Origin: Eubacteriales bacterium mix99 | GTDB lineage: Bacteria; Bacillota; Clostridia; Caldicoprobacterales; DTU083 | NCBI GenBank assembly: GCA_038396605.1 | Contig: CP121690.1 | Span: 962,500 to 1,026,499, forward strand | DNA: 64,000 nucleotides | Direction: 5' to 3' | Shown: one piece after another, positions 41,865 through 44,372 of the stretch | Layout: each line of letters begins with the position of its first letter | Position numbering within the stretch: position 1 is the stretch's first letter | Position numbers and translations under genes: made by a program | The notes under the pieces: generated by a model | The model's database searches: none | What the model was told of the DNA's origin: nothing | What the model saw: only the letters and a program-made list of their open reading frames with translations

Positions 41865-41889
41865 AAAAAAGCCCCGGAAATACCGGGGA
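41865..41889 (-). terminator. Intrinsic terminator of the PAP2-glycosyltransferase operon
   Basis: Minus strand CCCCGG-TATTT-CCGGGG followed by CTTTTTT. It ends the transcript of the fusion gene 59 bp upstream. Confidence 0.9.
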
Positions 41890-41947: not shown

Positions 41948-43666
41948 TTAATGAATCTCACTTTTCTCCATATTCAAAACACAGGGATTATACGCCTCCG
42001 ATTGGGAAGTCCCGGCGGAACGCTCCACAGTCTTACAGCCATGTCTGACGATGAACTCCACAATCTCCCGGGCTGCCCGTACATTCCGGAATGCAAACTG
42101 CCGGTTATAGATCTCACGAAGCTTTTTGCCATTCTGAGCAAGCAAATCCGATATCGCATCCGGAACTTTTTGGGGATCCATACAGACCACTCCCAAATTG
42201 TGATGCCGGACGTACTCCGGATTTTTTTCTTCCTGTCCCCTCAATGCATCCACAACAATAATGGGTTTGCACAGATTAACTGCTTCCATTACCACGTTGG
42301 GACTTCCCCGGACAATGAGAATATCCGCTTCCATCATGTACTTTTTCATATCTTTCGTGAATCCGTGAATCCGAACACGATGACCCGTGGTATCCCCAAA
42401 CTCCTTCTCCAGCTCTTCCCTCAGGGATGCCTTGCTTCCTGCAAGGACAGAAATGCGACAGCTACTGTGATCCAGAATATTTCGGACAATGCTCATAATC
42501 CGTTTGGATCCCTGGCTTCCGTTCACCAACAGGACAGAGGCTCCGTTTTTGGATATCTGATCCGCATCCCTCGGAGCAGAGGGGAAAGGTACGCAAAAGT
42601 CCTCGCGGACCGGAAAATCAACAAGCTGTAATTTTTCTTCCGGAAGTCCAAGGGAGAGCATGGTGCATTTGGACTCCACAGAAGGACACATGGTATAGGC
42701 TGACCTTTTATCCGCCCACATACCGGAAACGTTGTCCAGATCTGCAATCAGAGGAAGCACCGGAATGTTTACATTTTCCCGCTCCAGAACATTCAAAACT
42801 GCGCTGATAAAAACAGCATGAACAGGAACAATTACATCCGGTTTGATTTCCTCAAGCCGGCGAATCAGTTCCTGTCCTATGCTTTTTGTTACAAATGTAT
42901 TGATCATGCCGGGATAACGATTGGCTATCTGATAAAGAAAGCCCCATAATGCAGGAAAATTGACGATGATCGGATTGTAGAGCCGACCCATCAGATCCAT
43001 GAATTTTCCTCCAAGGGAAAACCCATCTATCACAGTGATCTTCAATCCCGGATATTGCTCATGAACCTGCTCCACCAAAGCCTTTGTGATACTTTTATGG
43101 CCCTGGCCGGTATCCTCCGCGGAAAGAAATACAATGCCGCCTCCTTCTCCACCAGTATTCGTACGGTTCTTCTTCTCTTTTTTTCTGCTTTTCTTCACTC
43201 TGTTCCCCTCACTGTTCTCAAGAAATCGGATGATACGCGGCCGGTTGTAACGTTGAATGATGACATATGGCAGATTCAGGCCAAGTGCCAGAAAAATCAT
43301 AAAAAAGGTCTCCAAAAAACTACTCCAGATTCCGAAAAGGAAAGAGGACAGAATAATTCCCCAGTGCGTCAATTCCGCACGGCAGGATTCCAGAAGATAT
43401 TTTTGTATATGCTTCTCATCGAACGATGCAATATGCTTTCTGGAAAAAATAGGCTTTAAAAAATCGCTCAGCTCCGGCAATTGATTTTTCCAATTCCTTA
43501 CTTTCAATACCCGCTGATAGACTTCTCCTCCATCTTCCCACTTTTTATCCTTATAAATCCAATTCTGGTAATCTAATATAGATTTAGGAAACTTAAGGGA
43601 AAGAAACGTGTTTGCAATCGACAATAAAATAAATAGAAAAATATTATCGGAAAGTGCCGCTTCCAT
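41948..43666 (-). CDS. Fusion protein: CrtO-like glycolipid acyltransferase domain plus GT28/MGDG synthase-like glycosyltransferase
   Basis: 572 residues. Residues about 1-155 resemble Staphylococcus CrtO (glycosyl-4,4'-diaponeurosporenoate acyltransferase): VLKVRNWKNQLPEL, SRKHIASFDEKHIQKYLLES, CRAELTHWG and NLPYVIIQRYNRPRI, with two or three membrane segments. A basic linker (155-175) follows. Residues about 178-540 are a GT28 fold like monogalactosyldiacylglycerol synthase/UgtP: FLSAEDTGQGHKSITKALVE, GSQGSKRIMSIV, HGFTKDMKKYMMEADILI and RGSPNVVMEAVNLCKP. The parts suggest one protein that glycosylates a lipid and acylates the product; this is inference. AAAGGAG is 10 bases before ATG 43666. 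Cotranscribed with the PAP2 gene 7 bp upstream. Confidence 0.85.
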   Translation of the reverse strand: MEAALSDNIFLFILLSIANTFLSLKFPKSILDYQNWIYKDKKWEDGGEVYQRVLKVRNWKNQLPELSDFLKPIFSRKHIASFDEKHIQKYLLESCRAELTHWGIILSSFLFGIWSSFLETFFMIFLALGLNLPYVIIQRYNRPRIIRFLENSEGNRVKKSRKKEKKNRTNTGGEGGGIVFLSAEDTGQGHKSITKALVEQVHEQYPGLKITVIDGFSLGGKFMDLMGRLYNPIIVNFPALWGFLYQIANRYPGMINTFVTKSIGQELIRRLEEIKPDVIVPVHAVFISAVLNVLERENVNIPVLPLIADLDNVSGMWADKRSAYTMCPSVESKCTMLSLGLPEEKLQLVDFPVREDFCVPFPSAPRDADQISKNGASVLLVNGSQGSKRIMSIVRNILDHSSCRISVLAGSKASLREELEKEFGDTTGHRVRIHGFTKDMKKYMMEADILIVRGSPNVVMEAVNLCKPIIVVDALRGQEEKNPEYVRHHNLGVVCMDPQKVPDAISDLLAQNGKKLREIYNRQFAFRNVRAAREIVEFIVRHGCKTVERSAGTSQSEAYNPCVLNMEKSEIH

Positions 43667-43673
43667 GCCCTTT

Positions 43674-44372
43674 TCACTCCTTTATCTGGATATAGCGATC
43701 CCAGCTGTGTTTTCTGATTGCGGGCAATACATACAGCGGAATGTAAAATACCATTCCGGTTACAATCCCCCATCCGACATCCATAACAGAATGCTGTTTG
43801 ATAAACACAGTGGACAGGCATATCAGTATGGTTAAGATGTGGGATGCAAGCCTCCCGTTCCTCTTCTCCCTTGCAAAGTCTTCCGAATGCTGCAGGGCCG
43901 CATTCACCGCAATGGAGTTAATCACATGCACGCTCGGACATACATTGGTCGGCGTATCCGTGGCATATACCATTCTCACCAAAAGAGAGAAAGGATCCTT
44001 TTTGGTAATGACCGGCCTCATATTCTGTGCATTGGGATAAATCATATAAACGATATAGGCAATGGACATCCCACCTGCCAGAAAGATAAGCAGTTTATAA
44101 AAATCCCTTCGGGAATGTGTCCCGGTGAATATCACTCCATATACAATATATGGAAACCAAATCAGATACGGAATAACGAATTCCTTGACAAACGGAACCC
44201 GGTCATCCAGGCTCACATGTATCATATATTTTGGAACAAGGGTCTTCTCCAAATATTTAAACCATATCAAAATCGGAACTAACAAAAGCAGACTGTAAAA
44301 ATACTTATGCTCCGATAGAAACTTCCGAAAGTCCCCCATTGTTTTCACAAAAATTATCCCCCGTTTCATCAT
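43674..44372 (-). CDS. PAP2-superfamily membrane phosphatase
   Basis: About 232 residues with five or six membrane helices. Active-site pieces of the acid phosphatase/PAP2 family: PTNVCPSVHVINS (motif 2 SxH) and KQHSVMDVGWGI (motif 3 H and D); motif 1 (K-x6-RP) is represented by NAQNMRPV. Family members hydrolyse lipid phosphates such as phosphatidate or undecaprenyl diphosphate, or act as inositol phosphorylceramide synthase-like enzymes. Start is ATG 44372 or 44369 (GGAG just upstream). It is followed 7 bp later by the acyltransferase-glycosyltransferase fusion, so it could supply a diacylglycerol-like acceptor. Confidence 0.82.
   Translation of the reverse strand: MMKRGIIFVKTMGDFRKFLSEHKYFYSLLLLVPILIWFKYLEKTLVPKYMIHVSLDDRVPFVKEFVIPYLIWFPYIVYGVIFTGTHSRRDFYKLLIFLAGGMSIAYIVYMIYPNAQNMRPVITKKDPFSLLVRMVYATDTPTNVCPSVHVINSIAVNAALQHSEDFAREKRNGRLASHILTILICLSTVFIKQHSVMDVGWGIVTGMVFYIPLYVLPAIRKHSWDRYIQIKE

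Follow-up and report, generated by a model that had tools for sequence, protein, structure and literature searches.

The CrtO-glycosyltransferase fusion and its gene neighborhood

We analyzed a 64,000-nucleotide stretch of DNA (the window, whose numbering is used below) from the gut-type Clostridia genome of Eubacteriales bacterium mix99, in which two adjacent genes on the reverse strand encode a PAP2-family lipid phosphatase and a two-domain fusion protein. The features of the locus are the following.

43674..44348, reverse strand: PAP2-family lipid phosphatase gene, 224 aa, GTG start (PF01569; conserved neighbor)
41948..43666, reverse strand: CrtO-GT28/MGDG fusion protein, 572 aa, an uninterrupted single frame
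43202..43666, reverse strand: CrtO-type acyltransferase domain, aa 1-155 (PF18927, E 2e-29; alignment; model)
43142..43201, reverse strand: linker of variable length, longer in UBA4874
42032..43141, reverse strand: GT-B fold glycosyltransferase (GT) domain of the GT28/MGDG-synthase type, aa 176-545 (PF06925 and PF04101)
42296..42310, reverse strand: RGSPN donor-loop variant, aa 453-457 (GT alignment)
41872..41888, reverse strand: terminator-like stem-loop with a T run (consensus scan alone)

The upstream gene ends in TGA, which is followed after 7 nucleotides by the ATG of the fusion gene, and the stem-loop lies 60 bp past the fusion stop codon. The fusion of a CrtO-like domain with a GT28/MGDG-type GT, as given in a preliminary description of this DNA, was borne out by Pfam profile searches. 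The CrtO profile matched the N-terminal part significantly (E 2e-29, 102.9 bits against a cut-off of 27.3), with residues 35-150 aligned to positions 2-122 of its 123, and was followed by MGDG_synth (PF06925; E 2e-14, 54.4 bits, residues 190-353) and Glyco_tran_28_C (PF04101; E 7e-10, 39.7 bits, residues 378-512). Each score exceeds the curated cut-off, and the two GT profiles occur in the expected order. An AlphaFold2 model of the whole fusion (pLDDT 89.2, pTM 0.70) consists of two ordered domains with a disordered linker at residues 162-173. The window genome has one CrtO gene and, at another site, a second, ordinary MGDG-type GT, relatives of which are found in the same family and order.

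Alignment of 32 CrtO proteins gave nine invariant columns (E44, W59, E93, E98, H101, Q138, R139, N141, and R142), all of which are kept in the window protein and in the two other fusions described below. Modeled alone, the CrtO domain is helical and of membrane type (pLDDT 90.3). Foldseek returned no solved relative of this model at E < 1, and the VIA-align matches were all generic helical bundles with Z no higher than 6.1, which are uninformative as to its fold.

The GT part carries the motifs GQGH (aa 187-190) and GQEEKN (aa 477-482), in which G187, G189, H190, G477, E479, and N482 are invariant among 24 aligned GTs and make up GxGH and GQExxN. Its closest solved structures are those of MGD1 (4x1t, Foldseek E 2.2e-15, TMt 0.79; and 4wyi), and MurG is the next match after the plant enzyme. 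At the donor loop, all five fusion-type GTs (window, L032, L033, L073, and L166) have R.SPN..MEA and the remaining 19 of the 24 have GG, as part of KPGGLTxxEA or GG(L/I)T in related GTs. The GG(L/I)T-type loop is common in the MGDG/GT28 family rather than strictly defining, MGD1 itself having GPGT. Judged from the alignment, RGSPN is a clade-specific variant of the donor loop. The fusion GT is approximately 20-25% identical to ordinary MGDG-type GTs, and its score with the UgtP diglucosyl-diacylglycerol synthase equivalog NF010135 (96 bits) is well below the cut-off of 500.

The PAP2 gene had been placed 7 bp upstream of the fusion with its start at 44372. The spacing and the family match stand, the latter with a PF01569 score slightly under the cut-off of 27.2 (24.4 bits, E 2.6e-5) that homologues in L066 (27.9 bits) and L137 (30.5 bits) pass. 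In comparison with the homologues in L032 and L033, however, the start is better placed at the GTG at 44348, because it is here that the start of the Sporobacter homologue, together with its ribosome-binding site, falls in the alignment. The classical PAP2 motifs are KX6RP, PSGH, and SRX5HX3D. The window protein keeps RP, CPSVH, and QHSVxD, and the C1 Lys and C3 Arg are absent from all three cassette members; phosphatidate phosphatase is for this reason only its predicted activity, and the protein might be a phosphotransferase or use another lipid. Some of its relatives match PAP2_3 (PF14378) too. Elsewhere, at L190:4022-5530, a 503-aa protein combines PAP2 with a 2-oxoacid-dehydrogenase-type acyltransferase domain (PF00198, E 4.5e-11), and its gene adjoins one for a PlsC-like acyltransferase.

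The fusion is rare and conserved

The fusion is not confined to the assembly in which it was noticed. Single-frame versions were found in two separate assemblies, the congeneric metagenome-assembled genome UBA4874 (L033; fusion 83% identical, PAP2 neighbor 85%) and the draft genome of the isolate Sporobacter termitidis DSM 10068 (L032; fusion 58% identical, PAP2 neighbor 71%). Conservation among the fusions covers both domains, and their linkers differ in length; the CrtO domain is 64% identical to that of S. termitidis. Since both genomes share the fusion together with its PAP2 neighbor, an assembly artifact or a fusion peculiar to one genome is ruled out.

Within a sample of 391 genomes of the class, CrtO occurred in 47 and the long frame only in the window genome and UBA4874. 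The S. termitidis family sample (200 genomes) contained CrtO in 33 genomes and the long frame only in S. termitidis, which was also the only end-to-end match to a whole-fusion profile among 394 genomes of the S. termitidis order. These samples, about a thousand genomes in all, overlap in part. The fusion is therefore real and conserved but rare, with three genomes found and nothing else fused likewise in the samples.

Unfused crtO genes recur beside GT and PAP2 genes

Profiles made from the window's own proteins were used to inspect approximately 75 CrtO gene neighborhoods. A GT28/MGDG-type GT gene, a PAP2 gene, or both were found beside 27 CrtO genes (11 GT only, 9 both, and 7 PAP2 only), and eight of the nine loci with both (L066, L075, L078, L137-L140, and L145) hold unfused crtO-GT-PAP2 trios. 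In the ninth, L135, the GT and PAP2 are joined in one 614-aa chain beside crtO, and beside crtO in L134 a 683-aa chain joins the GT to a diacylglycerol kinase (DAGK_cat, E 1e-30). Together with the window fusion, these two proteins tie CrtO to GT, GT to PAP2, and GT to diacylglycerol kinase. In the class sample of 391, 13 genomes contained both CrtO and this type of PAP2 (E < 1e-20), and in 11 of the 13 the genes lay within about 2 kb of each other, where an estimate from genome size gives a chance expectation of well under one genome. We found no earlier description of this wider CrtO-GT28-PAP2 association in Clostridia.

Eight further CrtO loci are carotenoid-like clusters, L065 and L068 being called so from gene layout alone. 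GT2-type genes adjoin crtO in L064, L067, L069, L071, L076, and L150, and the carotenoid-like cluster of L064 includes a flavin amine oxidoreductase as well.

Other genes were also seen at the CrtO loci. An AI-2E transporter-family gene (PF01594) adjoins the crtO-GT-PAP2 genes at L066:3000-4133, and another lies between crtO and the GT gene at L140:3405-4604; both are possible candidates for a lipid transporter of the product. At L080:2051-2680, a CDP-alcohol phosphatidyltransferase gene immediately precedes a crtO-PAP2 pair, which is another phospholipid link. A family 8 glycosyltransferase gene follows a different CrtO gene at L092:6377-7336, which suggests that the GT partners of CrtO proteins come from several families.

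Origin of the fusion cassette

Phylogenetic trees were built for the three protein families by quick searches, with SH-aLRT values as the only supports; the program flagged a few rows of the GT and PAP2 trees (L008, L029, and L031; L190 and L179) as mis-cut or very long, and the trees include them. In the CrtO tree, the three fusions group together (98), and L073 (92) and two solo genes (94) attach to this group. Of the 27 GT/PAP2-associated CrtO proteins, all except L073 form a group of their own (97), and the eight carotenoid-type CrtO proteins form a third (96). The closest relatives of the fusions are nearer to the carotenoid-cluster CrtO proteins than to those of the trios, with a modest support of 82. 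In the GT tree, L073 (98) and L166 (99) are likewise the partners of the fusion GTs, and the trio GTs are set apart (98). The PAP2s of the cassette also cluster together (99); their surroundings are solo PAP2s, those from the order of the window genome among them, rather than trio PAP2s. Because the fusion cassette stands apart from the trios in each of the three trees, the combination seems to have two origins, and the association of CrtO, GT, and PAP2 probably arose twice; descent of the fusion from an inherited trio is not supported.

L073 ranks as the closest, or one of the closest, unfused relatives in both the CrtO and GT trees. At L073:4808-6474 (and also in L174), the CrtO and MGDG-type GT genes stand tail to tail with overlapping stop codons and do not form one operon. 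This pair and its position in the trees suggest that an adjacent crtO/GT pair may have preceded the fusion.

The window genome's GyrA shares 59% identity with S. termitidis GyrA and 70-72% with the GyrA proteins of its own order, whereas the PAP2 of the cassette shares 71% with the Sporobacter protein and only 47-50% with the solo PAP2s of most own-order genomes. No CrtO was found in the other sampled genomes of the window's order. Given this contrast and the missing CrtO, transfer is the simplest reading, and the cassette probably moved horizontally between the window lineage and Sporobacter.

A candidate pathway to an acylated glycolipid

On balance, we lean slightly toward the two genes forming a cassette for an acylated glycosyl-diacylglycerol. 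In such a pathway, the PAP2 protein would release diacylglycerol, and the GT domain, at the cytosolic face, would transfer a sugar from a UDP-sugar onto it in the manner of MGD1 and UgtP, as its family and fold suggest. The membrane-embedded N-terminal CrtO domain would then esterify a fatty acyl group onto the sugar of the glycolipid, a step that we infer by analogy with the action of CrtO on glycosyl-diaponeurosporenoate in staphyloxanthin synthesis. With two enzymes in one chain, the glycolipid intermediate would stay at the membrane.

The invariant core of CrtO and the GT motifs are intact and the GT part has an MGD1-like fold, all of which we count in favor of an acylated-glycolipid cassette, as we do the retention of the fusion with its PAP2 neighbor in S. 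termitidis while the linker varies. An acylated diacylglycerol glycolipid, which the preliminary description had put forward, also draws support from the recurrent unfused trios and from the GT-PAP2 and GT-diacylglycerol kinase fusions beside crtO. Diacylglycerol kinase and PAP2 enzymes interconvert phosphatidate and diacylglycerol, and it is chiefly because both touch this pool that we name diacylglycerol as the acceptor. The trios belong to a separate lineage, so that their evidence carries over to the fusion by analogy only. Weighing against the proposed product are the missing C1 Lys and C3 Arg of the PAP2 protein and its slightly low Pfam score, the divergent GT loop, an acceptor that, unlike the sugar lipid of staphylococcal CrtO, is no carotenoid, and the small number of carriers, three genomes. 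Since the fusion-type GTs form a divergent clade with this unusual loop, any assignment of the sugar and the acceptor is provisional. A staphyloxanthin-like C30 carotenoid product was rejected because squalene/phytoene synthase (PF00494) is missing from all three fusion-bearing genomes, the control being positive in 7 of 14 genomes. For this enzyme, the reported absence of carotenoid genes from the window therefore extends to the whole genome. We give an even chance to the broader proposal that the CrtO family was recruited outside carotenoids, on at least two independent occasions, for glycosyl-diacylglycerol acylation alongside an MGDG-type GT and a PAP2 phosphatase, with CrtO and GT combined in one bifunctional enzyme in the window lineage.

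The same two chemistries could instead serve another acceptor, such as a hydroxylated or polyprenyl lipid or an existing glycolipid, with PAP2 acting on a polyprenyl or other lipid phosphate. The separate clade and altered donor loop of the fusion-type GTs would fit such an acceptor, as would the placement of the closest CrtO relatives nearer to the carotenoid-cluster proteins (support 82) and the range of the PAP2 family, members of which act on several lipid phosphates. We nevertheless consider it unlikely, though the most serious of the alternatives, in view of the GT-diacylglycerol kinase fusion beside crtO, the best structural match being the diacylglycerol galactosyltransferase MGD1, and the absence of squalene/phytoene synthase. 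More improbable is a change confined to the PAP2 protein, which would be a head-group phosphotransferase or have another role, giving a phospho-glycolipid or a regulatory linkage while the fusion still made an acylated glycolipid; the L134 fusion suggests a phosphatidate/diacylglycerol balance and so speaks against this, even though the loss of C1 Lys and C3 Arg beside retained CPSVH and QHSVxD, and the PAP2_3 scores of some relatives, count in its favor.

UgtP/MGDG-type GTs are peripheral membrane proteins, for which a catalytically lost CrtO domain could be useful as a mere membrane anchor. The nine family-invariant residues are nonetheless kept in all three fusions, the domain is at least as conserved between the window and S. 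termitidis as the whole protein, and unfused crtO genes recur beside GT genes, leaving this explanation with a small probability. That the fusion is a frame-joining artifact, or its PAP2 gene a chance neighbor, has a negligible one, as the same architecture and neighbor occur in a single-contig genome, a metagenome-assembled genome, and an isolate draft genome.

Significance and relation to known systems

In the papers that we found, CrtO is described solely as catalyzing the final step in making a pigment; literature searches returned no account of a CrtO acting outside carotenoid synthesis or joined to a GT and no link between CrtO and acylated glycolipids. If the acylated-glycolipid reading is true, Clostridia CrtO proteins beside GT28 and PAP2 are lipid-modifying enzymes, and names derived from pigment synthesis mislead their annotation. 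It would also provide a gene-level handle on the acylated glycolipids of gut Clostridia, whose envelope lipids can influence both the response to antibiotics and recognition by the immune system. For work on a role of CrtO in lipid modification, the single-chain fusion offers the simplest construct.

In Staphylococcus aureus, where CrtQ is the glycosyltransferase and CrtO the acyltransferase, crtPQMN leads to the glycosyl intermediate and crtOPQMN to staphyloxanthin (PMC12924280). The proposed pathway resembles this one in glycosylating a membrane lipid and then acylating the sugar with a CrtO of the same Pfam family. The window differs in its single chain and PAP2 partner, in a GT of the GT28/MGDG type in place of CrtQ, and in belonging to a genome that lacks squalene/phytoene synthase. 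The earlier view that the activities of CrtQ and CrtO are merged in one chain must accordingly be revised: because the crtO-linked GTs of the carotenoid-like clusters are of GT2 type, the window protein is, by its sequence, CrtO joined to an unrelated glycolipid-type GT.

With UgtP/YpfP and plant MGD1, the fusion shares the PF06925/PF04101 family, the GT-B fold, and the GxGH and GQExxN motifs, and it is distinguished by the RGSPN loop and the N-terminal CrtO domain. The Clostridia trios have the same three protein families in adjacent genes, but in the order crtO-GT-PAP2 rather than PAP2-[CrtO-GT] and with proteins of separate lineages.

The predicted type of product has a counterpart in plants, the acylated galactosyl-diacylglycerol that AGAP1 makes by acylating the head group of MGDG; this enzyme is assigned to a phospholipase family, its product is attributed to transacylation, and it is not described as CrtO type (PMC7956594). 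In Methylobacterium, in which no CrtO homologue was found, a carotenoid sugar is acylated by an enzyme of the lysophospholipid-acyltransferase type (PMC10448405). That a third acyl chain on a glycolipid does occur in Bacillota is shown by the triacylated glycolipid anchor of lipoteichoic acid in Lactobacillus plantarum (PMC8636137).
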